Assembly: GCF_014648575.1 (NCBI RefSeq)
Contig: NZ_BMRJ01000002.1
Coordinates: 499,697-563,696, forward strand
Direction: 5' to 3'
Source of the DNA: Agromyces mediolanus
GTDB lineage: Bacteria > Actinomycetota > Actinomycetes > Actinomycetales > Microbacteriaceae
Length of the DNA stretch: 64,000 nt
Shown here: one piece after another, positions 3,130-26,128 of the stretch
Layout of the letters: each line of letters opens with the position of its first letter
Position numbering within the stretch: the first letter of the stretch is position 1
The notes under the pieces: generated by a model
Seen by the model: only the letters and a program-made list of their open reading frames with translations
Told to the model about the DNA's origin: nothing
Database searches by the model: none
Program-made: the position numbers and the translations under genes

Positions 3130-3150
3130 GCCGGGCCCTGCGTGCTCGGC

Positions 3151-4431: not shown

Positions 4432-4500
4432 GCGCTGCTCCGGAGCTCTCGGTGGGACGTGCGGGGTCGGTGGGTGGATGGATGGCGCGGCGGCTTCCGC

Positions 4501-5493: not shown

Positions 5494-5498
5494 GGGGC

Positions 5499-6023: not shown

Positions 6024-6481
6024 TTCTCCTCCTCGAGAGTGGCGGTCGTGCTTCGGTCGGTGGTCGGGCGCAACGCGATCCCCTGGATCTCGAGGCGCAG
6101 GTGTGGGTGCGGCAGGGCGTGCACCGCGACGGTGGTGCGCGCGGGCCCCTGCTCGTCGAAGTACTCGGCCCACACCGCGTTGTACGCGGCGAAGTCGTTC
6201 ATGTCGACGAGGTAGCTCGTCGCCTGCACGAGGTCGGAGAGCTCGCAGCCGGCTGCGGCGAGCACCGCACGGAGATTCTCGATCACGGCGCGCGTCTGCA
6301 CCGCGATGTCGAGGCGCGTCGCCCCGAACTCGTCGGCGTCGGCTCCTGCGATGGTGTTGTCGGGGCGGCGGCTCGAGGTGCCCGAGACGAACACGTAGTC
6401 GCCGGCGACCCGCGCGTGCGGGAAGCGGCCGCGCGGCACCGCGCGCCCCTCGGCCAGGATGCCCCGGTCGTCGTCGGTCAT
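6020..6481 (-). CDS. nbaF: RidA family 2-aminomuconate deaminase
   Basis: A RidA/YjgF-fold protein of 153 residues, longer than housekeeping RidA (about 127). Residues such as [16 protein letters not shown] and the C-terminal [15 protein letters not shown] fit the aminomuconate deaminase branch. It should hydrolyse 2-aminomuconate to 4-oxalocrotonate plus ammonia. Its context is decisive: it sits between the dioxygenase and the oxalocrotonate decarboxylase, overlapping both by four bases. A general enamine deaminase role is less likely because a second, shorter RidA is encoded at 56406. Confidence 0.88.
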
Positions 6482-10128: not shown

Positions 10129-11636
10129 AGCTGCACGCACACGTTCGTCGGCTCGGTGTAGAACTCGAGCGAGTGGTGGCCGCCCTCGCGGCCGATGCCG
10201 GAGAGGCCGACGCCGCCGAAGGGGCTGCGGAGGTCGCGCAGGTACCAGGTGTTCACCCAGGACATGCCGACCCGCATGCGCTGCGCCACCCGGTGGCCGC
10301 GGGCGAGGTCGCTCGTCCAGGTGACGGCGGCGAGCCCGTAGTCGGTGTCGTTCGCGAGCGCGATCGCCTGCTCCTCGGTGTCGAAGGGGATGAGCGCCGC
10401 CGCCGGTCCGAAGATCTCCTCGCGCACGGTGCGGTGCGAGTGGTCGAGCCCGGTCCAGAGGGTCGGCTCGATCCACGCGCCGCCGTCGAGCTCCGCGCCG
10501 AGCGACGGGACGCCGCCGCCGGCGAGCACCGTCGCGCCCTCCTCGAGCGCGAGCTCGAAGTAGGAACGCACCTTCTCGCGGTGCGCCTGCGAGATGAGCG
10601 GCCCGGTCGTCGTCGCCGGGTCCTCCGGGCGGCCGAGCCGCAGCCGGCGGGACTGCTCGGCGAGGCCCGCGGCCACCTCGTCGAACACGGCGCGCTCGAC
10701 GTAGATGCGCTCGGTGCAGAGGCAGACCTGGCCCGTGTTCAGGTACGTGGAGCGGGCGAGGCCCGCGATCGCGTGGTCGAGGTCGGCGTCGGCGAAGACG
10801 ACCGCCGCGTTCTTGCCGCCGAGCTCGAAGGAGACGGGGCGCACCCGCGGGGCGACGGCCCGCATGATCGCCGAGCCCGTCGAGGACTCGCCGGTGAAGG
10901 TCACGCCGTCGATGCCGGGATGCCGGGTCAGCGCCTCGCCCGCCGAGCCCGCGCCGAAGCCGTGCACGACGTTCACGACGCCGGCGGGCACGCCCGCCTC
11001 GACGAGGATCTCGGCGAGGAGCGTGGCCGAGGACGGCGTCTCCTCCGAGGGCTTCACGACGACGGCGTTGCCGGTCGCGAGGGCGGGGGCGAGCTTCCAG
11101 GTGAGCAGCAGCAGCGGCAGGTTCCACGGCACGATCACGGCGACGACGCCGAGGGGCTTGCGCACCGCGTAGTTCAGGGCGCTGCGGCCGTCGGGCAGCT
11201 CGGTGAGGTACGAGTCGAGGCCCGCGGCCGAGACGGTGTCGGCGAAGGAGCGGAAGTTCGCGGCGGCCCGGGCGACGTCGAGCTCGCGGGCGAGGGTCTC
11301 CGGCTTGCCGGTGTCGCCCACCTCGGTCGCGACGAGCTCCTCGGCGCGGCGGTCGATGACGTCGGCGACGCGGCGGAGGAGGCGGGCGCGCTCGGCGACC
11401 GACATCCGCCCCCAGGGGCCGTCGAGCGCGGCGCGCGCCGCGGCGACCGCGCGGTCGACCTGCTCGGCGCCGGCCTCGTGCACGAGCGCGATGCGGCTGC
11501 CGTCCACCGGGTCGAACTTGTCGAAGCCCGCCACGCCGTCGACCGGCACGCCGCCGATGAAGTTGCGGATCGTGCGCGGCGCGGGCCCCGCCTCGGGGGT
11601 CGCGGCGGTCGGCAGCGACGTCGTCTGAGCTGGCAT
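10125..11636 (-). CDS. nbaE: 2-aminomuconate-6-semialdehyde dehydrogenase
   Basis: An aldehyde dehydrogenase superfamily member of 503 residues, first gene of the minus-strand operon. It should oxidise 2-aminomuconate semialdehyde to 2-aminomuconate with [15 protein letters not shown] carries the general-base Glu and [15 protein letters not shown] the nucleophile Cys305. The C-terminal [17 protein letters not shown] block is typical of hydroxy/aminomuconic semialdehyde dehydrogenases. The function comes from the operon as much as from sequence. It diverges from a LysR gene across an 82-base gap, so that LysR protein is its likely regulator. Confidence 0.9.
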
Positions 11637-11705
11637 GGCCTCAGGCTAGGAAGGACCAGGGATGCCGACAAATACTCTCTTGCTGCGCTGCCATGCCCAT
11701 CCGGC

Positions 11706-11711
11706 TATAGT
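11706..11711 (+). promoter_or_regulatory. -10 element TATAGT of the LysR gene
   Basis: TATAGT ends seven bases before the ATG at 11719 and no Shine-Dalgarno is present, so the transcript is probably leaderless. The 82-base gap also has to hold the nbaE promoter and the LysR site; I saw no clear T-N11-A dyad. Confidence 0.55.
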
Positions 11712-11718
11712 TCCCCGC

Positions 11719-12684
11719 ATGGTCACCGATCGACTCCTGGACGGCCGGCTGAAGATCCGGCATCTCGTGCTCGTCACCGCCATCGCCGACGAGGGCACGC
11801 TCGTCCGCGCGGCCGAGTCGCTGCACATCACCCAGCCCGTCGTCACCCGCGGCCTCCGCGAGGTCGAGGAGGTGCTCGCCGCCCCGCTGTTCGAGCGCCT
11901 GCCGCGCGGCGTCACCCCGACGCCCTACGGGCAGGCCTTCATCGAACGGGCGCGCTCGGTGCTCGCCGAGCTCCGCGCCGCGGGCGAGGAGGTGCGCCTG
12001 CTGCGCGCCGGCCAGCTCGGCACCGTGACGGTCGGCACCCACCTCGCCGGCTCGAACCTCCTGCTGCCGCGCGCGATCGCCGGGCTCAAGGCGGAGCATC
12101 CGAAGCTCACCGTCGTCGTGCGGGAGGGCACGCCCGACGCGCTGCAGCAGTGGCTGCTCGCGGGCGACCTCGACCTCACCGTGGGCCGGCTCTCACCGAC
12201 GGTGCCCGTGCGGCTCGAGCAGGAGCGGCTGCACCAGGAGCCCATCCGGCTCGTGGCGCGGGCGGGCCATCCGGTGCACGGCGGCCGCGGCACCGCGCTC
12301 GCCGAGCTGCTCGCCTACCCGTGGATCTTCCCCGTCGCGCAGACCGCGCTCCGGGCCGAGCTCGAGGCGGTGTTCTTCCAGGAGGGGCTGCCGCTGCCGG
12401 CCGATCGCGTGGAGTGCACCTCGATGCTGACGCTGCGCAACCTCCTCGTCTCGACCGACGTCATCGCCGCGCTGCCGATGTTCATCGCGGTCGACGACCG
12501 GGAGCTGCGCATCCTGCCGACGGCGCTGAGCTCCATCCGGCGCTCGGTGGGCGTCACGCTGCCGAAGGACCGCGCCCCGTCACCGGCCGCGGCCGCGCTG
12601 CTCGGGCACCTCCGCGAGGAGGGCGCGAAGCTCGCCGAGCTCGAGGAGGCGTTCGCGCGGGGCGAGGCCGGGCCGCGCGGCTGA
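11719..12684 (+). CDS. LysR family transcriptional regulator
   Basis: A 321-residue LysR-type regulator. The winged helix is at residues 10-70 (LVLVTAIADEGTLVRAAESL, then ITQPVVTRGLREVEE) and the periplasmic-binding-like effector domain follows (TVTVGTHLAGSNLLLPRAI). The ATG at 11719 is preferred to in-frame codons back to 11662, since those would lie in the divergent promoter. It faces the 3-hydroxyanthranilate operon, the classic layout for a LysR activator of an aromatic pathway; a pathway intermediate would be the expected effector. Regulation of the 12805 operon downstream is an alternative. Confidence 0.9.
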   Translation: MVTDRLLDGRLKIRHLVLVTAIADEGTLVRAAESLHITQPVVTRGLREVEEVLAAPLFERLPRGVTPTPYGQAFIERARSVLAELRAAGEEVRLLRAGQLGTVTVGTHLAGSNLLLPRAIAGLKAEHPKLTVVVREGTPDALQQWLLAGDLDLTVGRLSPTVPVRLEQERLHQEPIRLVARAGHPVHGGRGTALAELLAYPWIFPVAQTALRAELEAVFFQEGLPLPADRVECTSMLTLRNLLVSTDVIAALPMFIAVDDRELRILPTALSSIRRSVGVTLPKDRAPSPAAAALLGHLREEGAKLAELEEAFARGEAGPRG

Positions 12685-12804
12685 TATGCCCTCCCGGTCA
12701 TAGCTCGAAGCCGAAAGGATATTGGACAGCATCGCTCGGGCTGGCGACGCTGAAGGGGACGGCGCATCGAGGCGCCGCAGTTCCCAGCCGATTCTGGAGG
12801 CGAC

Positions 12805-14412
12805 ATGGCCGGCTCTCCCTACGTTCCCGACGCGAAGAAGTACCGCCCGGAGGATTTCCAGCGCGTCCCGGGCGAACCGGCCGATCCCGACCCCGCCAGC
12901 TGGGGCATGCAGCCCGACGGCACCTTCCTGCCGCCGGCGCACACGCCCTCGGTGCCGCGCGACGTGTTCGTCGACTGGCCCGGCCAGCTCGACTACCGCG
13001 ACCCCGAGGCCTACGCGCTCAACGCCACCGCGGAGGCGTTCTACCCGATCGTCGTGAACACGAGCCACTCCTGGCAGTGCATCTACGACTGGGACGGCGT
13101 CCGCTACATGCTGCACTACGGCGGCGGCAACCACTGGAAGCTCTACGACATCACCGACCCGCGCAACCTCACGATCGTCGACGAGGAGCAGTGGGGCTGG
13201 GGCGACCCCCGCCCGCAGTTCGGCGCGACCACCGTGCAGTGGAACGAGCGGCTCGGCAAGTACCTGGCGATCCAGGCGAGCGAGACGCCCCGCTACTTCC
13301 TCAAGGGCCGCGTCGCCAACAAGTGGATCGACGACACCGTCGAGGGCCAGCTGAAGGAGTGGGAGGGCCTGCGCGGCTTCCGCACCTTCGAGATGCACGG
13401 GCCGAGCCCGCGCGACTGGACCATCATCAACGAGACCTCCACCGACCCGAACCACGGGCCCGACGAGATCCAGGAGGGCAACGGCGTCCTCGACCTCCCG
13501 GTCTACTACGGCGAGAAGTACCTCTTCGTGGCGACCGCGCCCGACAACACCTTCACCAACCAGCCGTACAAGACCACCCTCTGGGCCGCGGGTCACGCCG
13601 CCTACGACGTGAGCGACCCGGCGAAGCCCGAACTGCTCTCCACCTGGTGGGTGCCGGGCACGCGCGCCGGCGAGGAGGACGACTCCGAGTACCTCGCGAA
13701 CAACGAGCGCTGGAACAACAAGACCTCGTGGTTCGGCTCGCGCATGGGCATCTTCCTGCCCCGCTCGGTCGAGTCGGGCTGGAAGTACGGCTACGCCGCC
13801 CAGGGCGGTCAGGGCTTCTTCGTGCTCGACGTCTCCGACCCGTCGAACATCCACCACGTCGGCTGGTGCGAGCTCCCGTCGAGCGTCGCCGGCACCGAGG
13901 GCGACAACGTCGACACCACGCAGGTCGAGGAGACCGGCTACGTCTACGTCTCGGGCTACCCGATGAACACCGACTGCTACGAGCCGGCCAAGGAGATCTA
14001 CCAGATCGACGTCAGCGACCCGACGAACCCCCGGCTCGTGCGCACGCTGCCCCGCCCGGTGCCGCCCGCCGAGGCGAAGTTCACCGACTGGGCGCAGCGG
14101 CGCGGCTCCTTCGGGCCGAAGCGCTCGGGCTACTTCACGAACACGGGCACGCCGCACGGCGGCGTGATCCCCTACGCCTTCTACGCCGCGGGCCTGCAGA
14201 TCTTCGACGTGCGCGACCCGGAGGACCCGAAGGTCGGCGCCTACTTCGTGCCGCCGATGGGCCTGAAGGACGACGACGACCTCGCGGCGCCCGTGCACGG
14301 CGTGTTCGTCGAGTGGGACCGCAACCTCATCTGGCTGTTCGCGAACCATGGCATCTACGCGGTGTCGACGCCGCTGCTCGGCGAGCCGGTGGTGGGGCTG
14401 CCGCCCGCCTGA
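12805..14412 (+). CDS. LVIVD-repeat beta-propeller-like protein, function unknown
   Basis: A 535-residue protein with no signal peptide. It carries several LVIVD-type blade motifs of the form YDITDP, YDVSDPAKPELL, LDVSDPSNIHHV, IDVSDPTNPRLV and FDVRDPEDPKVG, which suggest a beta-propeller. Conserved-looking histidines (NTSHSW, TPHGGV, VHGVFVEW, FANHGIY) and three cysteines could bind metal, but I cannot assign a reaction. GGAGGCGAC precedes the ATG. It leads an operon with a SnoaL-like protein, a double-DUF427 protein and an ABC importer, so it probably acts on the imported compound. Confidence 0.75.
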   Translation: MAGSPYVPDAKKYRPEDFQRVPGEPADPDPASWGMQPDGTFLPPAHTPSVPRDVFVDWPGQLDYRDPEAYALNATAEAFYPIVVNTSHSWQCIYDWDGVRYMLHYGGGNHWKLYDITDPRNLTIVDEEQWGWGDPRPQFGATTVQWNERLGKYLAIQASETPRYFLKGRVANKWIDDTVEGQLKEWEGLRGFRTFEMHGPSPRDWTIINETSTDPNHGPDEIQEGNGVLDLPVYYGEKYLFVATAPDNTFTNQPYKTTLWAAGHAAYDVSDPAKPELLSTWWVPGTRAGEEDDSEYLANNERWNNKTSWFGSRMGIFLPRSVESGWKYGYAAQGGQGFFVLDVSDPSNIHHVGWCELPSSVAGTEGDNVDTTQVEETGYVYVSGYPMNTDCYEPAKEIYQIDVSDPTNPRLVRTLPRPVPPAEAKFTDWAQRRGSFGPKRSGYFTNTGTPHGGVIPYAFYAAGLQIFDVRDPEDPKVGAYFVPPMGLKDDDDLAAPVHGVFVEWDRNLIWLFANHGIYAVSTPLLGEPVVGLPPA

Positions 14413-14463
14413 GCGGCGCGCCGCCGCGGCCGCTCGGCCCGGAGGTGGTTCGCTGTCCAGCAT

Positions 14464-14480
14464 TCCGATCGCAGATCGGA
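14464..14480 (+). other. intercistronic hairpin
   Basis: TCCGATC, three bases, then GATCGGA form a perfect 7-bp stem in the 99-base gap between the LVIVD-repeat gene and the SnoaL-like gene. It may be an mRNA processing or stabilising hairpin, or an operator. An AT-rich stretch and AAGGAGG follow it. Confidence 0.4.
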
Positions 14481-14511
14481 TCCAGAATACAAAATCCGAA
14501 GGAGGGGCGTC

Positions 14512-15042
14512 ATGGACGACGTCGCAGCCCGCAACAAGGAGATCGCCCTCGAGGTCTGGGGCAACGACCTCGACTCGCACAAGACCTCGCCCGACGACCC
14601 CTCGTTCCGCGAGCACTTCGAGCGGTACTACACCGAGGACTACTGGAACCACGCCTCGCAGCCCGGCAAGGACCGCGGCTTCCAGAACGCGTACTACGTG
14701 CGCAAGGCGTTCCTCGAGCTGTTCACCGACCCGAACTTCGTGATCGACAAGGTCGCGGCCGACGGCGACCTCGTCTTCCTCGAGGGCGTGTTCACCGCGA
14801 AGCACACGGGCCTCACGCTCTACGGCGTCCCGGCGACGGGCGTCGAGGTGAGCCAGCCGCAGGTGCACATCCTGCGCTTCCGCGACTTCAAGATCAGCGA
14901 GCACTTCGTCGTGCGCGACGACTACGAGATGTACCGCCAGGTCGTCCCGCTCGACCAGGACGGCGGCATCCTGCGCTTCGTCGACACCGACAAGTACGAC
15001 GCCGAGCGCGAGGACGCCGCATCGGTGGAGGCCGGGAGATGA
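14512..15042 (+). CDS. SnoaL-like (NTF2 fold) protein
   Basis: A 176-residue cone-shaped NTF2/SnoaL-fold protein: RNKEIALEVW at the N-terminus, YYTEDYWNHASQPGKDRGF, VFLEGVFTAKHTG and a C-terminal VHILRFRDFKISEHFVVRDD. The Asp/His pattern is that of SnoaL-like cyclases and isomerases, which act on enolisable ketones. The substrate is unknown. GGAGG precedes the ATG, and its stop overlaps the DUF427 gene as ATGA. The tail past residue 145 is acidic and probably disordered. Confidence 0.78.
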   Translation: MDDVAARNKEIALEVWGNDLDSHKTSPDDPSFREHFERYYTEDYWNHASQPGKDRGFQNAYYVRKAFLELFTDPNFVIDKVAADGDLVFLEGVFTAKHTGLTLYGVPATGVEVSQPQVHILRFRDFKISEHFVVRDDYEMYRQVVPLDQDGGILRFVDTDKYDAEREDAASVEAGR

Positions 15043-15890
15043 CCGTCTCCGACTTCCAGATCGAGGACAAGCTCATCGAGCGCGAGCTCGACCCGAGCTA
15101 CCACGAGTTCTCCGTCGAGCCGACGGGCCGGCAGGTGACCGTCGTGCTCGGCGGCGTGGTCGTCGCGCGCAGCCGGCGGGTCGCGCTCCTGCACGAGTCG
15201 AAGCACATGCCCGTCTACTACTTCCCGGTCGAGGACGTGCGGATGGATCTGCTGAGCCCGTCCGGCCGCACGAAGGACACGCCGATCAAGGGGGTCGCCC
15301 GCTACCTCGACGTCGACACCGGCACGAAGCGGGTGGCCGACGGCGCGTGGATCCACGAGGCGCCGACCTCGCCCGCGGCCGAGCTGCTGCGCGGCATGGT
15401 CGCCTTCTACTGGGCGAAGATGGACCGCTGGTTCGAGGAGGACGACGAGGTCTACAAGCACCCGCGCGACCCGTACCACCGGGTGGACGTGCTGAACTCC
15501 TCCCGCCACGTGCAGATCGTCGTGCTCGGGGAGGTCGTCGCCGAGTCGCGCCGCCCGAGGCTGCTCTTCGAGACGCGCCTGCCCACCCGGTACTACCTGC
15601 CCTGGGCCGATGTGCGCTCGGAGCTCCTCGTGCCGTCCACGACCCGCTCGACCTGCCCCTACAAGGGCGACGCCGAGTACTGGTCGGTGCAGATCGGCGA
15701 CCAGCTCGTGAAGGACCTCGCCTGGTCGTACCGCCATCCCATCGCCGAGTGCCCGAAGATCGAGAACCTCGTCTGCTTCTACGACGAGCAGGTGGACGCC
15801 GTCATCGTCGACGGCGTCGAGCAGGAGCGGCCGCGCACCGCCTGGTCGAAGGCCAGGGCCGTGCGCACCGTCGCCCCCACGGAGAGCTGA
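15039..15890 (+). CDS. tandem DUF427 domain protein
   Basis: A 283-residue protein made of two DUF427 domains, at about residues 20-115 and 155-250. Each has the pattern of a beta strand with G.VVA.SRR, an L.E...P..YY.P..DVR block and a later KG.A.YW/L element. DUF427 domains are small beta-barrels of unknown function. The ATG at 15039 overlaps the preceding stop and the next gene begins seven bases after its own stop. The link to an ABC importer here suggests a cytoplasmic role with the transported compound, but the sequence alone gives no reaction. Confidence 0.8.
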   Translation: MTVSDFQIEDKLIERELDPSYHEFSVEPTGRQVTVVLGGVVVARSRRVALLHESKHMPVYYFPVEDVRMDLLSPSGRTKDTPIKGVARYLDVDTGTKRVADGAWIHEAPTSPAAELLRGMVAFYWAKMDRWFEEDDEVYKHPRDPYHRVDVLNSSRHVQIVVLGEVVAESRRPRLLFETRLPTRYYLPWADVRSELLVPSTTRSTCPYKGDAEYWSVQIGDQLVKDLAWSYRHPIAECPKIENLVCFYDEQVDAVIVDGVEQERPRTAWSKARAVRTVAPTES

Positions 15891-15897
15891 GACCCGC

Positions 15898-17052
15898 ATG
15901 ACCACCCAGACCACGGACGCGCAGCGCGGCGGGGGACTCCTCGTCGTCGAGAACCTGCAGAAGCACTACGAGCTCGACGGCGCCGAGGTGCCCGTCGTGA
16001 AGGGCGTCGACTTCACGATCGAGCCCGGCACCTTCTACTCCCTGCTCGGCCCCTCCGGCTGCGGCAAGACGACCACGCTCCGCTGCGTCGCCGGCCTCGA
16101 GACGAGCAACGGGGGCAGCATCCGCCTCGACGGCGACGTGCTGTCGACGGGCGACCGCCACGTGCCGCCGAACAAGCGCGACGTCGGCATGGTCTTCCAG
16201 AACTACGCGATCTGGCCGCACATGACCGTGTTCCAGAACGCGGTCTTCCCGCTCCAGGTCTCCGGCGGCCGGCTGCCCAAGGCGCAGGCCAGGAAGCGCG
16301 CCATGGAGGCGCTCGAGCTCGTGCAGCTCGACCACCTCGCCGAGCGGCCCGCGACCGCCCTCTCCGGCGGCCAGCAGCAGCGGCTCGCGCTCGCCCGTGC
16401 GCTCGCGCACCGCCCACGGCTGCTGCTCCTCGACGAGCCGCTGTCGAATCTCGACGCGAAGCTGCGCGACACCATGCGCACCGAGCTGCGGAGTCTGCAG
16501 CGCAGCCTCGGCATCAGCGCCCTCTACGTCACGCACGACCAGTCCGAGGCGCTCTCGATGTCCGACCGCGTCGCCGTCATGAACGGCGGGCGGATCGTGC
16601 AGGAGGCCTCGCCGCGCGAGCTCTACGACCGCCCGGCTGACCGCTTCGTGGCGGACTTCGTCGGCCGGGTGAACATGATCCCCGCGGTCGTCCGCGACCG
16701 CGACGAGCACGGCGACGCCGTGGTCGAGGCCTTCGGCACGCGGATGGTGACGCCCTGCCCGGGCGGCGTCGTCCGCGGCGAGGAGGTCACGATCACCTTC
16801 CGGCCCGAGAGCATCCGCTGGCACGAGACCGCGCCGGCGGACCGGCCGAACGTGCTGCCGGCTCGGGTCGTCCGCGTCGAGTTCCTCGGCGAGATCGTCG
16901 AGTACGAGGCCGAGGTCCTGCACGGCGGCACCACGGTCGGCCGGCTCACCGCGCGCGGCGCCCCCATGGCGTCGCCCCGCGAGGGCGCCGAGGTCTTCCT
17001 CGAGCTCGCCCCGCACGCCTGCCGCGTGCTTGTCGACGATCCCGTCGGCTGA
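15898..17052 (+). CDS. ABC importer ATP-binding protein (PotA/FbpC type)
   Basis: A 384-residue ATPase for a binding-protein-dependent importer. It has Walker A GPSGCGKTTT near residue 50, the Q-loop MVFQNYAIWPHMTV, signature LSGGQQQR, Walker B LLLLDEPLSNLDAK and H-loop YVTHDQSEA, then a C-terminal TOBE-like domain. This layout is shared by spermidine/putrescine, iron(III), thiamine and phosphonate importers. It is followed by the lipoprotein and permease genes and preceded by DUF427, all in one direction. Confidence 0.92.
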   Translation: MTTQTTDAQRGGGLLVVENLQKHYELDGAEVPVVKGVDFTIEPGTFYSLLGPSGCGKTTTLRCVAGLETSNGGSIRLDGDVLSTGDRHVPPNKRDVGMVFQNYAIWPHMTVFQNAVFPLQVSGGRLPKAQARKRAMEALELVQLDHLAERPATALSGGQQQRLALARALAHRPRLLLLDEPLSNLDAKLRDTMRTELRSLQRSLGISALYVTHDQSEALSMSDRVAVMNGGRIVQEASPRELYDRPADRFVADFVGRVNMIPAVVRDRDEHGDAVVEAFGTRMVTPCPGGVVRGEEVTITFRPESIRWHETAPADRPNVLPARVVRVEFLGEIVEYEAEVLHGGTTVGRLTARGAPMASPREGAEVFLELAPHACRVLVDDPVG

Positions 17053-17059
17053 GCGGCGC

Positions 17060-17165
17060 GGCATCCGTCCGGCCCCCGGCCCCCAGATCGCACCACCGCA
17101 CGACCAAGGCACCACCTGCACGACCGCACGACCAGCACCACTGAACCAGAACCCCCGATCCAGGT
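17060..17165 (+). other. C-rich, G-poor leader before the binding-protein gene
   Basis: The 123-base gap before the lipoprotein gene is rich in C and A and poor in G, with repeated CACGACC and CACCAC units and no stem. Such unstructured C-rich RNA resembles Rho-loading sites or translation leaders. I see no promoter in it. Confidence 0.3.
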
Positions 17166-17175
17166 CAGAGAGGAC

Positions 17176-18342
17176 ATGAGGATCATGCGCACACGGATGG
17201 GATACGTCGCAGTCGCGGCAGCAGGCATGCTGCTGCTGAGCTCCTGCGCCACCAGCAGCGGCGAGGCCGCGCCGACCGCGGCAGCCGGCGAGGGCGCGGA
17301 CATCGCGCCCTGCGAGGCCGTCGAGGTCGGCGCGATCACGCGCTGCGAGAACTTCTACGAGGACAACTGGCCCGAGATCGACCGGCAGCTCGACGCGCTC
17401 TACGAGCAGGCGAAGGAGACCGACGGCGGCCGCCTCGTCATCTGGGACTGGTACGAGCTCGGCCCCGAGGTCATCGCGGCGTTCAACGAGCGCTTCCCCG
17501 ACCTCACGATCGAGACCCGCGGCCTCACCTACAACCTGTCGTCCGCGATCATCTCGGCGAAGGCCACCGGCTCGCGGAACACCGACGTCGTCTCGGGCTC
17601 GATCACCTCGATGGCCGCGATGTACGACGAGGGCTTCTGGGAGAAGGTCGACTGGTCCTCGTTCGGCGTGCCGAAGGAGTACCTCGAGCTCGGCGCCCCC
17701 GAGCTGCTGCCCGACAGCATCAACGGTTCGCTCATGCAGGTGAACACCGACAAGATCGAGGCGCCCGACTCGCTCGACGGTCTCCTCGCCCCGGAGTACA
17801 CGGGCAAGGTCTCGGTCGCCGCGTACAACGCCGTCGTCTTCGCCGGCTACGGCAAGGCGCTCGGCGAGGACGCGATGGTCGACCTGATCGGCGAGCTGAA
17901 GTCGAGCGGCACGCTGTCGCTGCTCGAGGACCAGAACACCCCGCTGTCGAGCGGCGACGTGCCGATCGCGCTCAACCAGACGCTGTTCAACCCGAACCCG
18001 AGCCTCGCGGCGCAGCCCTTCGAGCACTCGGGCGTGTGGGCGCAGTTCTCCGGCGTGAACACCGACGCGAAGAACAAGCCCGGCGCCATGCTCTGGGTGC
18101 TCTGGAACGCCTACGATCCGGACTGGCTGAAGCTCCGGATGACGGACGAGCGCTTCGCCACCACGCAGGTGCCGTACGCCGGCCTCCCCTCCTCGCTCTT
18201 CGACGAGGCCACCGGTCTCATGAAGACGAACGCCGACGCACTGCTCACGGGCCTCGAGTCCGGCGCGGAGACGGAGACGCAGGACACCCGCGATGAGTGG
18301 AACGCGCTCATCAACGCCGCCGACGCCGCACTGAACGGCTGA
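17176..18342 (+). CDS. ABC importer substrate-binding lipoprotein
   Basis: A 388-residue extracellular solute-binding lipoprotein. The basic N-terminus, hydrophobic stretch and lipobox LLSSC put the lipidated residue at Cys24. The mature protein has two nearby cysteines (IAPCEAVEV, ITRCENFYE) that could pair. The body is a PotD/FbpA-like type II binding fold (RLVIWDWYELGPEVIAAFNE). Start 17176 is drawn; ATG 17185 is equally possible, as AGAGAGG is two bases from the first and eleven from the second. The ligand is unknown: the fold covers polyamines, iron and organic phosphonates. Confidence 0.88.
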   Translation: MRIMRTRMGYVAVAAAGMLLLSSCATSSGEAAPTAAAGEGADIAPCEAVEVGAITRCENFYEDNWPEIDRQLDALYEQAKETDGGRLVIWDWYELGPEVIAAFNERFPDLTIETRGLTYNLSSAIISAKATGSRNTDVVSGSITSMAAMYDEGFWEKVDWSSFGVPKEYLELGAPELLPDSINGSLMQVNTDKIEAPDSLDGLLAPEYTGKVSVAAYNAVVFAGYGKALGEDAMVDLIGELKSSGTLSLLEDQNTPLSSGDVPIALNQTLFNPNPSLAAQPFEHSGVWAQFSGVNTDAKNKPGAMLWVLWNAYDPDWLKLRMTDERFATTQVPYAGLPSSLFDEATGLMKTNADALLTGLESGAETETQDTRDEWNALINAADAALNG

Positions 18343-18345
18343 TCG

Positions 18346-20298
18346 ATGTCGACGGCAGGACGGGCCCGGCGGCCGGGCGGAGCGAGGCCGGGGCGGCAGC
18401 GCCCCACGACCATGACCGCGGCGATGATCGTCGCGGGGGTCGTCATCTTCCTCCTCCTCGCGGTGCCGCTGATCGTTCAGGTGATCACGGCGTTCCGCGG
18501 CCCGTTCCTGCCGTTCGGCGTCGCCTCCGCGCAGTGGGGCGTCTCGAACTTCGTCACCCTCTGGGAGCTCCGGGAGGACTTCTGGTCGGTGCTCGGCGCC
18601 ACGGGCGCCTTCGTCGGCGGCTCGACGCTGCTGTCGCTGCTCATGGCCTTCGGCCTGGCCTGGGTGACGGTGCGCACCGACTTCCCGTTCCGCCGGGTGA
18701 TCGGCGTGCTCGTGATCGTGCCGTACATCATCCCGCCGATCGTGAAGGCGCAGGCGTACCTGCTCATGGTCTCGCCCGAGACGGGCGTGCTGAACCAGCT
18801 GCTGCGGCTCCTGCCGTGGACGGGCGACGTGCCGATCGACCCCTACGCCTTCGGCACCCTCATCCTGATCCAGGCCCTCACGAACGTGACGTTCCCGTAC
18901 CTGATGATCGTGCCGATCCTCACGAACATGGACGGCTCGCTCGAGGAGTCGGCCCGCGCCTCGGGCGCGAGCTGGGGCGAGACGCTCCGCCGGGTCACCC
19001 TGCCGATGCTCTGGCCGGGCCTCCTCGGCGTCGCCGTGCTCACCTTCATCCTCGGCCTCGGCAGCCTCGAGGTGCCGCTGCTGTTCGGCCAGGAGTCCGG
19101 CCGCTCGATCTTCGCGCTGAAACTCTGGACGCTGATCAGCTCGAACGCGGGCGAGCTGCCGCAGTACGGGCTCGCGGCGGCCTGGGGCCTCGTCTTCCTC
19201 GTCATCACGACGATCGCCTTCGCGGTGTACCTGCGGGCGACGCGGAACGCCGAGCGGCGCGCCTCGGTCTCCGGCAAGGGCTTCCGGCCCACGACGATGA
19301 AGCTCGGCGCGTGGCGCATCCCCGTCGCGATCGGCGTCGCGATCTTCATCCTGCTGACCGCGGTGCTGCCGCTCTTCGCCCTGTTCTGGGCGGCGATCAC
19401 GCCGTACCCGATCGCGTTCAGCTTCACCGCGCTCGTCGAGCAGACCCAGTTCGGCTCCTTCGCCGCGGTGCTCGCCGACGGCGAGTTCTGGGCCTCGCTC
19501 GGCCGCACCCTCGTGATCGCGGGCGGCAGCGCCACGATCGCCTGCGTCGCGGCGACCGTGCTCGCCTACGGCATCGCCCGCAGCACCTCGACGTGGTGGA
19601 CCCGCGCGGTCGACCTCTTCGCCTCCTCCTCGGTGGCGATCCCGGCGACGATCGCGGGCTTCGCGATGTTCCTGCTGTTCATGGTCATCAACCCGGTCAT
19701 CCCGATCGCGGGCACCGTGCTCGCGCTCGTCATCGCGTACTCGTACCGGGTGTCGATCGCGTACCGGGCCTCGTACAGCGCGACGCTGCAGATCCGCACC
19801 GAGCTGGAGGAGGCGGCGCTCACGAGCGGCGCGAGCCGGCTCGCGACGTTCCGCCGGGTGATCGCCCCGCTGCTGCTGCCGACGGTGCTCGCGGTGTGGA
19901 TCCAGGTGTTCATCCTCGGCACGAACGAGTTCACACTGCCCGCCTTCCTCGCGACGCCCGAGTCGCGACCGCTGTCGATGTACGTCTACGCGATGATCAA
20001 CCCGCGCTCGGCGCAGCTCTACGCGCCCGACCAGGGCGCGGCGATGGCGCTGGTCTTCACGCTGCTCGTGTTCCTCATCGGCTACGGGCTGCAGTGGGCC
20101 GTGTCGCTCCGGGCGATCGGCCGCGCCAAGCGTCGGCCGGGCCTGCCCGGCCTCGGCTCGCGGAGCGGCAAGCCCCCGGTCGCGCCCGCGCCCGACACGA
20201 TCTCCATCGCCGCGCAGGAGCACCAGGAGCACCGCGCGCGTACGAAGCTCCGCACGCCGGACGCAGCCGGCAGCGAGCGCTCGGTCAGTCGCAGCTGA
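18346..20298 (+). CDS. ABC importer permease, two fused domains
   Basis: A 650-residue membrane protein carrying two BPD_transp_1 domains in one chain, about residues 60-290 and 340-580, roughly 12 helices. Each has its EAA loop for contacting the ATPase: EESARASGASWGETLRRV near residue 200 and EEAALTSGASRLATFRRV near 487. Fused permeases are typical of the iron(III)/thiamine/2-aminoethylphosphonate group rather than PotBC. The start is three bases after the lipoprotein stop. The polar tail past residue 590 is probably cytoplasmic. Confidence 0.92.
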   Translation: MSTAGRARRPGGARPGRQRPTTMTAAMIVAGVVIFLLLAVPLIVQVITAFRGPFLPFGVASAQWGVSNFVTLWELREDFWSVLGATGAFVGGSTLLSLLMAFGLAWVTVRTDFPFRRVIGVLVIVPYIIPPIVKAQAYLLMVSPETGVLNQLLRLLPWTGDVPIDPYAFGTLILIQALTNVTFPYLMIVPILTNMDGSLEESARASGASWGETLRRVTLPMLWPGLLGVAVLTFILGLGSLEVPLLFGQESGRSIFALKLWTLISSNAGELPQYGLAAAWGLVFLVITTIAFAVYLRATRNAERRASVSGKGFRPTTMKLGAWRIPVAIGVAIFILLTAVLPLFALFWAAITPYPIAFSFTALVEQTQFGSFAAVLADGEFWASLGRTLVIAGGSATIACVAATVLAYGIARSTSTWWTRAVDLFASSSVAIPATIAGFAMFLLFMVINPVIPIAGTVLALVIAYSYRVSIAYRASYSATLQIRTELEEAALTSGASRLATFRRVIAPLLLPTVLAVWIQVFILGTNEFTLPAFLATPESRPLSMYVYAMINPRSAQLYAPDQGAAMALVFTLLVFLIGYGLQWAVSLRAIGRAKRRPGLPGLGSRSGKPPVAPAPDTISIAAQEHQEHRARTKLRTPDAAGSERSVSRS

Positions 20299-20359: not shown

Positions 20360-20396
20360 TGTACACCGCGTCCAGTGCGGTGGCATCCGATGTACA
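20360..20396. promoter_or_regulatory. paired TGTACA elements upstream of gabT
   Basis: TGTACA at 20360-20365 and 20391-20396 begin 31 bases apart; the second is the centre of the palindrome GATGTACATC. The first is followed by CCGCGTC, the same as at 3093 before the PucR-type gene, with the same 31-base step. It is a likely binding site for that regulator at the GABA operon promoter. Confidence 0.6.
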
Positions 20397-20476
20397 TCAG
20401 GGCGTCGCGGGACGCGGGGGAGCCGACCTAGCATTGCGGTCATCCTCCCCCGTCGTCACTTGCATCGGAGCAACCA

Positions 20477-21835
20477 ATGACCCTCGTCGACACCCCGGCC
20501 ACCGCCACCGGAGGCCCCGCGCTCGCACAGGAGCGCCGCCTCGTCACCGCCATCCCCGGCCCCCGCTCGCAGGAGCTGCTGGCCCGCAAGGCGAGCGCCG
20601 TCGCCGCGGGCGTCGGCCACACCCTGCCGATCTCGGTCGTCGCTGCCGGCGGCGGCGTCGTCGTCGACGCCGACGGCAACTCGCTCATCGACCTCGGCTC
20701 CGGCATCGCGGTCACCGGCGTCGGCAACTCGGCCCCCCGCGTCGTCGAGGCCGTCACGGCCCAGCTGAACGCCTTCACGCACACCTGCTTCACCGTCTCG
20801 CCCTACGAGGGCTACGTCGCCGTCGCCGAGAAGCTCAACGAGCTCACCCCCGGCGACCACGTCAAGCGCACCGCCCTGTTCAACTCGGGCGCCGAGGCCG
20901 TCGAGAACGCCGTGAAGATCGCGCGTCACTACACGAAGAAGCAGGCCGTCGTCGCCTTCGACCACGCCTACCACGGCCGCACCAACCTCACCATGGGCCT
21001 CACGGCGAAGAACCAGCCGTACAAGAACGGCTTCGGCCCCTTCGCCCCCGAGATCTACCGCGCCCCGCTCAGCTACCCCTTCCGCGACGGCGGCCTCGAC
21101 GGCCGCGAGGCGGCGGCCCGCGCCATCCTCGGCATCGAGAAGCAGATCGGCGCCGAGAACCTCGCCGCGATCATCATCGAGCCCATCCAGGGCGAGGGCG
21201 GCTTCATCGTCCCGGCCCCGGGCTTCCTCGCCGCGCTCGTCGAGTGGGCGACGGCGAACGACGTCGTCTTCATCGCCGACGAGGTGCAGACCGGCTTCGC
21301 CCGCACCGGCGCCTGGTTCGCGAGCGAGCACGAGGGCATCGTGCCCGACCTCATCGTCACCGCGAAGGGCATCGCCGGCGGCCTCCCGCTCTCGGCCGTC
21401 ACCGGCCGCGCCGAGATCATGGACGCCGCCCAGGTCGGCGGCCTCGGCGGCACCTACACCGGCAGCCCGCTCGCCTGCGCCGCGGCGCTCGCGACGATCG
21501 AGACCTACGCCGAGGACGGCCTCGTCGAGCGCGCCAAGGAGATCGGCTCGGTGCTCATCGGCCGCCTGAACGCCCTGCGCACCGCCGACGCCCGCATCGG
21601 CGACGTCCGCGGCCGCGGCGCCATGGTCGCGATCGAGCTCGTCGACCCCGAGACCGGGGCCCCCGACGCCGCCCTCACCGGCAAGGTCGCGAAGTACGCC
21701 CACGAGCAGGGCGTCATCCTGCTCACCTGCGGCACCTACGGCAACGTGATCCGCTTCCTCCCGCCGCTCACGATCTCCGACGAGCTCCTCATCGAGGGCC
21801 TCGGCGTCGTGGCCGAGGGGCTCAAGCAGGCATGA
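20477..21835 (+). CDS. gabT: 4-aminobutyrate-2-oxoglutarate aminotransferase
   Basis: A class III PLP aminotransferase of 452 residues that transfers the amino group of GABA to 2-oxoglutarate, giving succinate semialdehyde and glutamate. FNSGAEAVENAVKIAR binds the cofactor phosphate, IADEVQTGFARTG holds the PLP-stacking Asp, and TAKGIAGG carries Lys297. It is the first gene of a six-gene operon; its stop overlaps the glutamate dehydrogenase start as ATGA. The operon context with gabD and an amine oxidase supports GABA over other omega-amino acids such as beta-alanine. Confidence 0.93.
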   Translation: MTLVDTPATATGGPALAQERRLVTAIPGPRSQELLARKASAVAAGVGHTLPISVVAAGGGVVVDADGNSLIDLGSGIAVTGVGNSAPRVVEAVTAQLNAFTHTCFTVSPYEGYVAVAEKLNELTPGDHVKRTALFNSGAEAVENAVKIARHYTKKQAVVAFDHAYHGRTNLTMGLTAKNQPYKNGFGPFAPEIYRAPLSYPFRDGGLDGREAAARAILGIEKQIGAENLAAIIIEPIQGEGGFIVPAPGFLAALVEWATANDVVFIADEVQTGFARTGAWFASEHEGIVPDLIVTAKGIAGGLPLSAVTGRAEIMDAAQVGGLGGTYTGSPLACAAALATIETYAEDGLVERAKEIGSVLIGRLNALRTADARIGDVRGRGAMVAIELVDPETGAPDAALTGKVAKYAHEQGVILLTCGTYGNVIRFLPPLTISDELLIEGLGVVAEGLKQA

Positions 21836-23115
21836 GCACCGTGATCGACGGGGCGGCGACCCTCGCCGCCCCCGTCGCGACGCCCCTCGAGGACGCCCGA
21901 GCCCAGCTCGCCGAGGCCATCGCGCTGCTCGGCTACAGCGACGGCACCCGGCAGATGCTCGCGACCCCGCGCCGCGAGCTCACCGTCGCCGTGCCGCTGC
22001 GCACCGACGCCGGCGAGACCCGCCTGTTCACCGGCTACCGGGTGCAGCACAACTTCAGCCGCGGCCCCGCCAAGGGCGGCCTCCGCTACGCGCCGAACGT
22101 GAACCTCGACGAGGTCCGCGCGCTCGCGATGTGGATGACCTGGAAGTGCGCGCTGCTCGACGTGCCGTACGGCGGCGCGAAGGGCGGCATCGCGATCGAC
22201 CCGCGCGAGCACTCGCAGGCGGAGCTCGAGCGCGTGACCCGCCGCTACACGAGCGAGATCCTGCCGATCATCGGGCCGGAGCGCGACATCCCCGCGCCCG
22301 ACATCGGCACCGACGAGCGCACGATGGCGTGGATCATGGACACCTACTCGGTGAACTCCGGGTACACCGTGCCCGGCATCGTGACCGGCAAGCCGATCGC
22401 GCTCGGCGGCTCGCAGGGGCGCGCGAGCGCCACCTCGCGCGGCGTCACCCACATCGCGCTCGCCGCGCTCCGCCACGCCGGCATCACCCAGAGGCAGGCC
22501 ACCGCGGCGGTGCAGGGCTTCGGCAAGGTCGGCGCCGACGCGGCCCGCTTCCTCGCCGAGGCCGGCGTCACCGTGCAGGCCGTCAGCGACCAGTACGGCG
22601 CCGTGTTCAACGCCGCGGGCCTCGACATCGAGGCGCTCGGCGACCACGTGCAGCGCACCGGCGCGGTCGTCGGCTTCGCCGGCGGCGAGGCGCTCGACGG
22701 CGCCGCCCTGCTCGAGCTCGAGGTCGACCTGCTCGTGCCGGCCGCCGTCGAGGGCGTGCTGCACGAGGGCAACGCCGGCCGGGTCGGCGCGAAGGTCATC
22801 GTCGAGGGCGCGAACGGCCCGACGACGCCCGACGCCGACCGGATCCTGCGCGAGCGGGGCATCCTCGTCGTCCCGGACATCCTCGCGAACGCCGGCGGCG
22901 TGATCGTCTCCTACTTCGAGTGGGTGCAGGCGAACCAGGCTTACTGGTGGCGCGCCGACGAGGTGGAGTCCAGACTGGAGGAGCGGATGCTGAGCGCCTG
23001 GGAGCACGTGCTGGGCTATGCCCGGTCGCGCGACCTCTCGCTCCGCACCGCCGCCACGGCGCTCGCGGTCGAACGCGTCGCCGAGGCGCACAAGCTGCGC
23101 GGCCTGTACCCCTGA
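21832..23115 (+). CDS. Glu/Leu/Phe/Val family dehydrogenase, probably NAD-glutamate dehydrogenase
   Basis: A 427-residue amino-acid dehydrogenase that oxidatively deaminates glutamate to 2-oxoglutarate and ammonia. The dimerisation half has RVQHNFSRGPAKGGLRY and DVPYGGAKGGIAID with the catalytic lysines; the Rossmann half has AAVQGFGKVGADAARFL. The C-terminal NAGGVIVSYFEWVQANQAYWW is typical of the RocG/GudB glutamate branch. Being coupled to gabT (ATGA overlap), it would regenerate the 2-oxoglutarate that GabT consumes. A leucine or valine preference cannot be excluded from sequence alone. Confidence 0.88.
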   Translation: MSTVIDGAATLAAPVATPLEDARAQLAEAIALLGYSDGTRQMLATPRRELTVAVPLRTDAGETRLFTGYRVQHNFSRGPAKGGLRYAPNVNLDEVRALAMWMTWKCALLDVPYGGAKGGIAIDPREHSQAELERVTRRYTSEILPIIGPERDIPAPDIGTDERTMAWIMDTYSVNSGYTVPGIVTGKPIALGGSQGRASATSRGVTHIALAALRHAGITQRQATAAVQGFGKVGADAARFLAEAGVTVQAVSDQYGAVFNAAGLDIEALGDHVQRTGAVVGFAGGEALDGAALLELEVDLLVPAAVEGVLHEGNAGRVGAKVIVEGANGPTTPDADRILRERGILVVPDILANAGGVIVSYFEWVQANQAYWWRADEVESRLEERMLSAWEHVLGYARSRDLSLRTAATALAVERVAEAHKLRGLYP

Positions 23116-23130
23116 TCAGGCCCGCTCCCT

Positions 23131-23170
23131 CCCGACTCGCCCGACGTCGATCGACGTCGGGCACGTCGGG
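23131..23170. repeat. 40-bp palindromic element, copy A
   Basis: A near-perfect 40-bp palindrome in the gap between glutamate dehydrogenase and gabD. The inner 24 bases (arms GCCCGACGTCGA and its complement, 23139-23162) are perfect. Outer arms CCCGACTCGCCCGAC and GTCGGGCACGTCGGG match a second 40-bp element at 40048. It may be a REP-like repeat or an mRNA hairpin. Confidence 0.65.
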
Positions 23171-23209
23171 GGTGCACCGCACGAACATCCATCGAAACGG
23201 AAGTCACAC

Positions 23210-24679
23210 ATGACGAACGCAACGCTTGAATCCTCGGTGCTCGACAAGGTCGAGGGCCGGCTGTTCATCGGGGGAGCCTGGGTCGACGCCGAGGGCGGCA
23301 AGACCCTCGAGGTCGCCGACCCCTCGACGGGCGACACCATCAAGGTCATCGCCGACGCCTCCCCGGCCGACGGCATCAAGGCGCTCGACGCGGCCGTCGC
23401 CGCGCAGGACGAGTGGGCCAAGGTCGCCCCGCGCCAGCGCGGCGAGCTGCTGCGCCGCGCCTTCGACCTGCTCACCGAGCGCAAGGAGGAGTTCGCGCTC
23501 CTCATGACCCTCGAGATGGGCAAGCCGATCGCCGAGGCCCGCGGCGAGGTCGTCTACGGCGGCGAGTTCCTCCGCTGGTTCAGCGAGGAGGCCGTGCGCA
23601 TCTCCGGCCGCTACGGCCTGAACCCCGAGGGCACCGGCCACATGGTCGTCTCGCAGCGCCCCGTCGGCCCCTCGTTCTTCATCACCCCGTGGAACTTCCC
23701 GCTCGCGATGGCGACCCGCAAGATCGCCCCCGCGCTCGCGGCCGGCTGCACCGTCGTCATCAAGCCCCCGGCCCTCACGCCGCTCACGACGATCGCGTTC
23801 GTGCAGCTGCTCGAGGAGGTCGGCCTGCCCAAGGGCGTCGTGAACGTCATCCCGACCTCGACCTCGTCGAAGGTCTCCGGCCCGATCATCGAGGACCCGC
23901 GCCTGCGCAAGCTCAGCTTCACGGGCTCGACCGAGGTCGGCCGCGCCCTCATGAAGCAGGCCGCCACCGGCATCCTGCGCACCTCGATGGAGCTCGGCGG
24001 CAACGCCCCCTTCGTCGTGTTCGAGGACGCCGACCTCGACAAGGCGGTCGACGGCGCGATGCTCGCGAAGTTCCGCAACATCGGCCAGGCCTGCACGGCG
24101 GCGAACCGCTTCATCGTGCACGAGAAGGTCGCCGCCGAGTTCTCGAAGCGCGTCGCCGAGCGCGTCGCCTCGTTCAAGGTCGGCCGCGGCACCGCGGACG
24201 ACGTGAACATCGGGCCGCTCATCGACGACAAGGCCGTGGCCTCGACCGACGAGCTCGTGCAGGACGCCGTGTCCAAGGGCGCCAAGGTGCTCACCGGCGG
24301 CACCGTCATCGACGGCGCCGGCTCGTTCTACGCGCCGACCGTGCTCGGCGACGTGTCGGCCGACGCGCGCCTGCTCCGCGAGGAGATCTTCGGGCCGGTG
24401 CTCGGCATCACCACCTTCGCCGACGAGGACGAGGCCGTGCGCCTCGCCAACGACACCGAGTACGGGCTCGTCTCGTACGTCTTCACCGAGGACCTGGCGC
24501 GCGGCCACCGCATGATCGAGCGCCTCGCCACGGGCATGATGGGCCTGAACACCGGCCTCGTCTCGAACGCGGCGGCGCCCTTCGGCGGCATCAAGCAGTC
24601 CGGCATCGGCCGCGAGGGCGGCGCAGAGGGCATCCACGAGTACCTCGACACCAAGTACACGCTCATCCCGGTGAGCTGA
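23210..24679 (+). CDS. gabD: succinate-semialdehyde dehydrogenase
   Basis: An aldehyde dehydrogenase of 489 residues that oxidises succinate semialdehyde, the product of GabT, to succinate. SMELGGNAPFVVF holds the general base and NIGQACTAANRF the nucleophile Cys295; [16 protein letters not shown] is the GabD-type C-terminus. It may also accept 4-aminobutanal from the putrescine oxidase encoded next. It is separated from glutamate dehydrogenase by a 94-base gap with the palindromic element, and GAAACGGAAG precedes the ATG. Confidence 0.92.
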   Translation: MTNATLESSVLDKVEGRLFIGGAWVDAEGGKTLEVADPSTGDTIKVIADASPADGIKALDAAVAAQDEWAKVAPRQRGELLRRAFDLLTERKEEFALLMTLEMGKPIAEARGEVVYGGEFLRWFSEEAVRISGRYGLNPEGTGHMVVSQRPVGPSFFITPWNFPLAMATRKIAPALAAGCTVVIKPPALTPLTTIAFVQLLEEVGLPKGVVNVIPTSTSSKVSGPIIEDPRLRKLSFTGSTEVGRALMKQAATGILRTSMELGGNAPFVVFEDADLDKAVDGAMLAKFRNIGQACTAANRFIVHEKVAAEFSKRVAERVASFKVGRGTADDVNIGPLIDDKAVASTDELVQDAVSKGAKVLTGGTVIDGAGSFYAPTVLGDVSADARLLREEIFGPVLGITTFADEDEAVRLANDTEYGLVSYVFTEDLARGHRMIERLATGMMGLNTGLVSNAAAPFGGIKQSGIGREGGAEGIHEYLDTKYTLIPVS

Positions 24680-24686
24680 GCGCGCG

Positions 24687-24722
24687 GGCGGATGCCGCGG
24701 GCGCACGCCTGCGGCATCCGCC
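24687..24722. terminator. 12-bp hairpin inside the GABA operon
   Basis: GGCGGATGCCGC and GCGGCATCCGCC pair perfectly over a 12-base loop, followed by TTCGTGTTT. It sits between gabD and the oxidase gene and would partly terminate or process the transcript. The arms are an inverted pair of the frequent heptamer GGATGCC. Confidence 0.6.
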
Positions 24723-24763
24723 TTCGTGTTTCTCCGAACGAACAGAAGCAGGAACCAGGAACC

Positions 24764-26128
24764 ATGGAACGCATCGAAACCGACGTCGTCGTGATCGGAG
24801 CCGGCGCCGCCGGCCTCACCGCCGCGACCGAGCTGAAGGCCGCGGGCAAGCGCGTCGTCGTGCTCGAGGCGCGTGACCGCGTCGGCGGCCGCCTCTGGAA
24901 CGGCGACTTCGACGGGCACCTGCTCGAGATCGGCGGCCAGTGGGTCTCGCCCGACCAGGACGCCCTGATCGAGACCCTCGCCGAGCTCGGCCTCGAGACC
25001 TACTCGCGCTACCGCGAGGGCGAGAACGTCTACATCGCGGAGGACGGCGAGCGCCGCCTCTTCGAGGGCGAGATCTTCCCGGTCCCCGCCAAGACGGAGG
25101 GCGAGATCCTCGGCCTCATCGAGAAGCTCGACGCGCTCGTCGCCGAGATCGACCCCGAGGCCCCCTGGGCGCACCCGCGCGCCAAGGAGCTCGACGAGAT
25201 CTCCTTCGCCGAGTGGCTCGGCACCCAGACCGACGACGAGGAGGCGAAGCTCAACATCGGCATGTTCATCGCCGGCGCGATGCTGACGAAGCCGACGCAC
25301 GCCTTCTCGGCCCTGCAGGCGCTGCTGATGGCCGCCTCGGCCGGCTCGTTCTCGCACCTCGTCGACGCGGACTTCATCCTCGACCAGCGCGTCGTCGGCG
25401 GCCTGCAGCAGGTGCCGCTCCGCCTCGCCGAGCGTCTCGGCGACGACGTCGTCAAGCTCGAGCAGCCCGTGCGCACCATCCGCTGGTCGCCGGAGGACCC
25501 GGCCGCGGGCGTCACCGTCGTGACCGACTCGCTCGAGGTCGCCGCCGAGCGCGTCATCCTCGCGCTCGCGCCGATCCTGTACTCGCGGATCAGCTACGAC
25601 CCGCCGCTGCCGCGCCGCCAGCACCAGCTGCACCAGCACCTCTCGATGGGCTTCGTGATCAAGGTGCACGCCGTCTACGAGACGCCGTTCTGGCGCGAGC
25701 AGGGCCTCTCGGGCACCGCGTTCAGCCCGTACGAGCTCTGCCACGAGGCGTACGACAACACGAACCACGGCGACACCCGCGGCACGCTCGTCGGCTTCGT
25801 CTCCGACGAGGAGGCCGACGGCGTCTTCTCGCTCTCCGCCGAGGAGCGCCAGGCGAAGATCCTCGAATCGCTCTCGCACTACTACGGCGAGCAGGCGAAG
25901 AACCCGGTGCTCTACTACGAGAGCGACTGGGGCAGCGAGGAGTGGACCCGCGGCGCCTACGCCGCGAGCTTCGACATGGGCGGCCTCGCCCGCTACGGCG
26001 CCGACCTGCGCGAGCCGGTGGGCCCGATCTCCTTCGCCTGCTCCGACATGGCGGGCAAGGGCTATCAGCACGTCGACGGCGCGATCCGCATGGGCCGCCT
26101 CGCCGCCGCCAACATCCTCCAGGGCTGA
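24764..26128 (+). CDS. puo: FAD-dependent amine oxidase, probably putrescine oxidase
   Basis: A 454-residue flavin monoamine oxidase with the dinucleotide motif VVVIGAGAAGLTAATEL at the N-terminus, then EARDRVGGRLWNG and a C-terminal SDMAGKGYQHVDGAIRMG flavin-binding block. Length and the C-terminal motif fit the actinobacterial putrescine oxidases, which make 4-aminobutanal, H2O2 and ammonia. Its place after gabT-gdh-gabD supports a putrescine-to-succinate route. Tyramine or another primary amine remains possible. Confidence 0.82.
   Translation: MERIETDVVVIGAGAAGLTAATELKAAGKRVVVLEARDRVGGRLWNGDFDGHLLEIGGQWVSPDQDALIETLAELGLETYSRYREGENVYIAEDGERRLFEGEIFPVPAKTEGEILGLIEKLDALVAEIDPEAPWAHPRAKELDEISFAEWLGTQTDDEEAKLNIGMFIAGAMLTKPTHAFSALQALLMAASAGSFSHLVDADFILDQRVVGGLQQVPLRLAERLGDDVVKLEQPVRTIRWSPEDPAAGVTVVTDSLEVAAERVILALAPILYSRISYDPPLPRRQHQLHQHLSMGFVIKVHAVYETPFWREQGLSGTAFSPYELCHEAYDNTNHGDTRGTLVGFVSDEEADGVFSLSAEERQAKILESLSHYYGEQAKNPVLYYESDWGSEEWTRGAYAASFDMGGLARYGADLREPVGPISFACSDMAGKGYQHVDGAIRMGRLAAANILQG

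Follow-up and report, generated by a model that had tools for sequence, protein, structure and literature searches.

A paired TGTAC element upstream of gabT and of a PucR-type gene in Agromyces is very probably the operator of a GABA regulator

In the stretch of DNA analyzed here, a window of 64,000 nucleotides from Agromyces mediolanus, a paired TGTAC element lies upstream of gabT and again upstream of the gene for a PucR-type regulator. It is very probably the operator of that regulator, the product of 1470 to 3032, which would be a functional counterpart of GabR and would use the element both to activate gabT and to regulate its own gene. The direct evidence consists of the sites themselves, their conservation and position, the gene context, and the occurrence of operators on both sides in 16 genomes in which the two genes have been parted. 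No description of the TGTAC-pair operator or of the history of the split locus was found in the open-licence literature searched. The operators and the genes around them are as follows.

1470 to 3032, minus strand: PucR-type transcription regulator of 520 amino acids with a GTG start and PucR, GGDEF-like and C-terminal HTH_30 domains
3093 to 3129, plus strand: PucR-side operator TGTAC-N26-TGTACA, 60 bp upstream of the PucR-type start codon (3032, minus strand)
3151 to 11636, minus strand: kyn part of the intervening block, reading towards the PucR gene, with kynureninase, amidohydrolase, Rid protein, 4-hydroxy-2-oxovalerate aldolase, acetaldehyde dehydrogenase and 2-hydroxymuconic-semialdehyde dehydrogenase
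15898 to 20298, plus strand: end of the block, reading towards gabT, with a PotA-like ABC transporter ATPase, binding protein and permease
20360 to 20396, plus strand: gabT-side operator TGTAC-N26-TGTACA, 80 bp upstream of the gabT ATG
20429 to 20434, plus strand: predicted -10 element TAGCAT of the gabT promoter, from the conservation of CYTA[GC][CG]AT
20477 to 21835, plus strand: gabT, 4-aminobutyrate--2-oxoglutarate transaminase (NCBIfam NF004714, 759 bits, cut-off 639; TIGR00700, 620 bits, cut-off 506.65)
21832 to 23115, plus strand: glutamate dehydrogenase, the first gene downstream of gabT (Pfam ELFV_dehydrog and dimerization domain; ATG from translation; NF041398, 508 bits, under the cut-off of 620)
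23018 to 24679, plus strand: succinate-semialdehyde dehydrogenase-like gene (Pfam Aldedh, 542 bits; TIGR01780, 552.8 bits, under the cut-off of 646), whose true start probably lies farther downstream than 23018, since the domain does not begin until about residue 80
24692 to 26128, plus strand: flavin amine oxidase (Pfam Amino_oxidase, 258.7 bits), possibly a putrescine oxidase by inferred substrate

Each operator is a pair of TGTAC words whose starts are 31 bases apart, with TGTACG at 3093 and TGTACA at 3124 on the PucR side and TGTACA at both 20360 and 20391 on the gabT side. An earlier sequence-only reading of the window had picked out both pairs with this spacing, as well as the CCGCGTC that directly follows the first element at 3093 and at 20360, and the sequence confirms both observations. 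The flank exemplifies a looser consensus, in which operator position 11 is G and position 13 is C in all 55 gabT-side operators compared within the genus. The word TGTACA is a palindrome by itself. Dinucleotide shuffles of the window gave a mean of 0.01 sites for TGTAC-N26-TGTACA over 100 trials, against two in the real sequence; these two sites count as three strand matches, the gabT copy being readable on either strand. The sequence-only reading had proposed a genome-wide search for the pattern and named many chance hits inside genes as the outcome that would count against it. That outcome did not occur: across the whole genome (3,861,601 bases) the pattern is found at just the same two sites, both intergenic, and the reversed control has no matches. 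With up to two mismatches allowed, nothing further rose above background (47/42 strand matches genome-wide versus 34/31 for the reversed control). The same scan also ruled out a larger regulon in this genome at zero or one mismatch.

The element is conserved across the genus. An exact TGTAC-N26-TGTACA is present in 42 of 60 Agromyces genomes and its reversed control in 4, and every pattern locus fetched from the window genome and the Agromyces set (31/31) adjoins GabT or PucR. At the 22 loci with named relatives matched through the PucR-type protein, the relative was Agromyces each time. Matches to PucR (E 1e-60) and to GabT (E 1e-150) were found in 57 and 58 of the 60 genomes, respectively, the GabT match in G040 being a 58% paralog. 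The most common arrangement, seen in 38 of the 60, has the PucR gene and gabT as divergent neighbors with an operator (two mismatches or fewer) between them. The regions upstream of gabT carry an operator within two mismatches at 55 of 55 loci and an exact one at 42, while shuffles gave means of 0.6 and 0; these 55 loci leave out G005, G011, G017, G021 and G040. In the adjacent genomes, the operator lies 45 to 152 bp from the gabT start, and 26 of the 38 fall between 78 and 82 bp. The distance to the PucR start runs from about 8 to 218 bp, an approximate range since 15 of 54 starts are off by a codon or more, and in some genomes the operator may overlap the pucR promoter.

PucR or gabT is missing, partial or on broken contigs in G011, G017, G021 and G040. 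Among these, G011 has an exact PucR-side TGTAC pair at spacing 30, and G017 and G040 lack a PucR ortholog, a close gabT and, too, an exact operator match. In G059 the PucR gene and gabT are on different contigs, with an operator on each side at spacings of 30 and 31. G005 has no gabT match at E 1e-150; there, a one-mismatch operator lies between the PucR gene and a divergent succinate-semialdehyde-dehydrogenase-like gene (L272), which scores 548.6 bits against TIGR01780, under the cut-off of 646. At two further loci, L018 (G028) and L025 (G035), the PucR gene matches as two overlapping pieces, possibly from a frameshift or a sequencing error, and the operator and gabT are present despite the broken match.

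The protein encoded at 1470 to 3032 falls within the PucR family by its N-terminal PucR domain (Pfam PF07905, 63.5 bits, cut-off 33.5) and its C-terminal HTH_30 domain (PF13556, 61.2 bits, cut-off 27). It also has a GGDEF-like domain (PF17853, 27.7 bits, cut-off 24.5), and no solved structure was related to it in sequence at E 0.01. Its best NCBIfam match, PmfR (NF045769), reaches 69.8 bits against a cut-off of 800, so the protein is not classed as PmfR. PmfR of Arthrobacter nicotinovorans pAO1 is said to be a divergent activator of the gamma-N-methylaminobutyrate operon, with a footprint reportedly at about -88 to -48 and a core site of GTTT-14 bp-AAAC. This reported footprint is close to the place of the operator described here, whereas the core site differs from the TGTAC pair.

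That the GABA regulator belongs to a known kind, the PucR kind, is well supported, and the case to compare is GabR of Corynebacterium glutamicum. Expression of C. glutamicum gabTDP depends on GabR, a PucR-type activator that forms an octamer; its two sites, 21-bp inverted repeats between -87 and -23, lie just upstream of the gabT -35 region, and both are needed for strong binding (PMC7652997). The window protein, compared with GabR by description, likewise belongs to the PucR family and is predicted to control GABA transaminase genes from two elements upstream of the gabT promoter. GabR is encoded divergently to gabT, which is the usual layout among the relatives of the window (38/60 Agromyces), whereas in the window itself the genes are 17 kb apart. 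GabR is also reported there to be without a GGDEF-like domain, which the window protein has, and its sites are described as inverted repeats, where the window has TGTAC words set 31 bp apart. The same paper describes PucR, PutR and AdeR of Bacillus subtilis and CdaR of Escherichia coli as PucR-type proteins with a GGDEF-like domain, and reports a 17-bp inverted repeat for PutR, a 24-bp inverted repeat for AdeR and a non-palindromic site for PucR (PMC7652997). On that description, these four share the domains of the window protein and its control of local catabolic genes, while their ligands differ.

The gabT promoter offers a place for such a regulator to act. In 54 of 55 Agromyces gabT loci, a CYTA[GC][CG]AT box follows the operator, its TA starting 32 to 33 bp downstream, so that the pair of putative sites ends at this distance before the -10 box, just upstream of the promoter. 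When the gabT promoter sequences were read by eye, no good -35 hexamer was seen at the right distance, which fits an activator-dependent promoter. The sequence-only reading had taken the 31-base spacing as three helical turns, on which a dimer or tetramer could bridge both elements. This is a reasonable reading: elements 30 to 31 bp apart, about three turns, would present the same face of the DNA, and the regulator probably binds both together as a higher oligomer. It would then sit just upstream of the gabT promoter and, in the presence of a pathway metabolite, could activate the GABA/putrescine operon. Binding, the effector, activation rather than repression, and the oligomeric state are steps that we infer, and the expectation that both elements are bound on one face and that gabT is activated is drawn by analogy with C. 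glutamicum GabR. The second operator copy, at the regulator's own gene, would provide autoregulation of either sign.

Going by gene order and site conservation, the most likely arrangement is that the 1470 to 3032 protein controls gabT through the paired TGTAC operator, and itself as well. Control of the gabT operon by this protein had been suggested from the window alone; it is now very probable, with the two genes divergent around an operator in most of the genus and the layout and operator recurring together in some other genera of the family. The operator upstream of the PucR gene is best read as a site for control of that gene. An operator upstream of both genes is also what any shared regulator would lead one to expect. 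Another PucR-family protein, or a global regulator of nitrogen or carbon, could bind the TGTAC pair, with the PucR gene as one of its targets, and the genome does encode three PF07905 proteins. We consider this improbable. Two sites in the genome do not suit a global regulator. A paralog with 43% identity is matched at E 1e-60 in just 3 of the 60 Agromyces genomes, whereas the operator is present at every one of the 55 gabT loci. Nor is there a TGTAC pair, at spacings of 25 to 40, in the stretch upstream of either of the other PF07905 genes. The rarity of the paralog and this lack of an upstream pair led us to reject the other PF07905 proteins as obvious binders.

In 16 of the 60 Agromyces genomes, the window included, the PucR gene and gabT are about 16 to 18 kb apart (the other split loci are L095, L099, L102, L106, L112, L113, L115, L117, L120, L129, L130, L133, L136, L141 and L144). 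Between them lies a block of about 17 kb (3151 to 20298 in the window) made up of kynurenine/3-hydroxyanthranilate genes and an ABC transporter. Its gene order is identical in 16 of 16: kynureninase, amidohydrolase, Rid protein, aldolase and two dehydrogenases, and then a LysR-type gene, one further gene and the ABC transporter. Only G000 and G042 gave a match to the SnoaL-like gene of the block. Upstream of the PucR gene, an exact TGTAC pair is present in each of the 16. The spacing of 31 on both sides, read from the window, holds there but fails as a rule on the PucR side, where it is 30 in 14 of these genomes and 31 in 2. On the gabT side, an exact TGTAC pair at 31 is found in 13 of 16, with one or two mismatches in the other 3, and the stricter TGTAC-N26-TGTACA is exact on 8 of the 16. 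A GAAC within the spacer is common to all 14 spacing-30 operators on the PucR side (e.g., L095, L102 and L106), extending to GAACAT in 13, and the 31-bp PucR-side copy in the window appears to be of this type but one base longer. In most relatives, a single operator between the divergent genes would serve both. A single shared operator cannot serve two genes that have been parted, so each keeps its own copy; in this genome, each gene would likewise require the copy that it has kept beside the 17-kb block.

The sequence-only reading had proposed that the PucR-type protein next to kynureninase, by controlling the GABA/putrescine operon, links two pathways, here taken as the breakdown of kynurenine and that of GABA. 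The protein might, for example, sense a metabolite of the kynurenine pathway or be co-transcribed with the kyn genes; in 16 of 16 split genomes, these genes run on the same strand towards the PucR gene, with kynureninase adjoining, so that read-through could occur. This neighborhood is not general, however. In the 38 adjacent genomes, the block is missing from the interval between pucR and gabT, and the regulator and the gabT operator are retained with no intervening kyn genes. A close kynureninase occurs in just one of the 38, G007 (79% identity), where it is located elsewhere; the others have at best a distant kynureninase with 44% identity or less. Beyond the 16 split genomes, the block kynureninase (77 to 100% identical) is found only in G007, G011 and G059, and in the last two it adjoins the PucR gene as in the split genomes. 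Two further points speak against a link: every split genome has a TGTAC pair at its PucR promoter, and the window has no further site of the full pattern near the kyn genes. Since the gabT operator is found both in genomes with the inserted kyn genes and in genomes without them, the proposed link is left unsupported, and we rate it as unlikely. A looser coupling, in which the PucR gene receives read-through from the same-strand kyn genes, is possible. A second, distant kynureninase (about 40% identical) lies at 1262709 to 1263905 of contig C1 of G000, and its kind is present in nearly all Agromyces genomes, those that have no block included. We consider it very improbable that the element is instead a promoter or RNA signal, or that it is a chance TGTAC pair of the kind common in coding DNA. 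Many TGTAC pairs at multiple-of-three spacings do occur among the genus-wide matches listed, but 31 is not a multiple of three, the two sites are intergenic and conserved in sequence and position, and chance occurrence was rejected on the window and genus shuffles, the genome-wide count and the reversed control.

In G033 (L121) the block is absent and the operator occurs twice in tandem, at a distance of 102 bp. This genome is close to the window, matching it up to position 3142 and again from 20354; the 46 bp between the matching stretches resemble nothing clearly within the window's first 30 kb. A small tree built from about 600 nt of this locus, on which the outgroup did not fall on one side, requires at least six changes to explain the split state. 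The basal rows and the outgroups have the adjacent layout, so the block may have been gained early and then lost several times, or gained several times, or the locus may have been exchanged. We suggest, with somewhat more doubt than confidence, that the divergent promoter of regulator and target has been a docking point for a catabolic block of about 17 kb. Full operators in the same orientation would have been kept on both sides, so that autoregulation survives, and the block would have come and gone repeatedly, G033 with its tandem operators being a case in which it is missing.

Outside the genus, the picture is more varied. An exact TGTAC-N26-TGTACA was found in 26 of 299 Microbacteriaceae genomes, 22 of them outside Agromyces; one or more loci were examined in each of the 22, with one further place in G074 left out. 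The match lies exactly between a PucR homologue and gabT in 8 of these, and elsewhere in the other 14, about equal to the reversed control (14 non-genus genomes). A search of 199 non-Agromyces genomes with the PucR protein returned 104 matches. Seventy are divergent to a gabT of more than 60% identity, 26 face a distant aminotransferase (about 26 to 32%), and the remaining 8 have no gabT in the stretch. Within the 70 divergent PucR-gabT regions, an operator with two mismatches or fewer is present in 21 (12 of 36 genera) and an exact one in 7. The corresponding shuffle means, 0.9 and 0, were obtained on the first 52 of the 70 regions; all 21 matching regions are among these 52, and the remaining 18, from the other 34 rows, include none within two mismatches. 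A scan of one strand found the operator in 20 of the 70 divergent regions and in none of the 34 regions where the PucR homologue has no close gabT opposite it. Because 49 of the 70 regions have no match within two mismatches, the TGTAC letters are not general to the family, and the divergent PucR-gabT pairing is more widespread than they are. The confidence placed in the operator assignment draws on the data from within Agromyces. When direct repeats of any letters were considered in the first 52 regions, 31 bp was the commonest spacing (14 of 26 genera; shuffle mean 6.4). The spacing by itself is weak evidence, since the best of all spacings reached at least 14 in 2 of 60 shuffle trials. In some more distant genera (L247, L248, L238 and L227), the words are altered, as in TGTCGA and TGTCCA, and the 31-bp spacing is still readable; regulator and operator may have changed together there.

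The analysis provides a testable operator and target for an uncharacterized PucR-type regulator of GABA catabolism, in a family, the Microbacteriaceae, in which the divergent PucR-gabT pairing is common. The split genomes amount to a natural experiment: the operator seems to be as necessary at the regulator's own promoter as at its target, and the locus illustrates how regulation can persist with a large block of genes inside a shared promoter.
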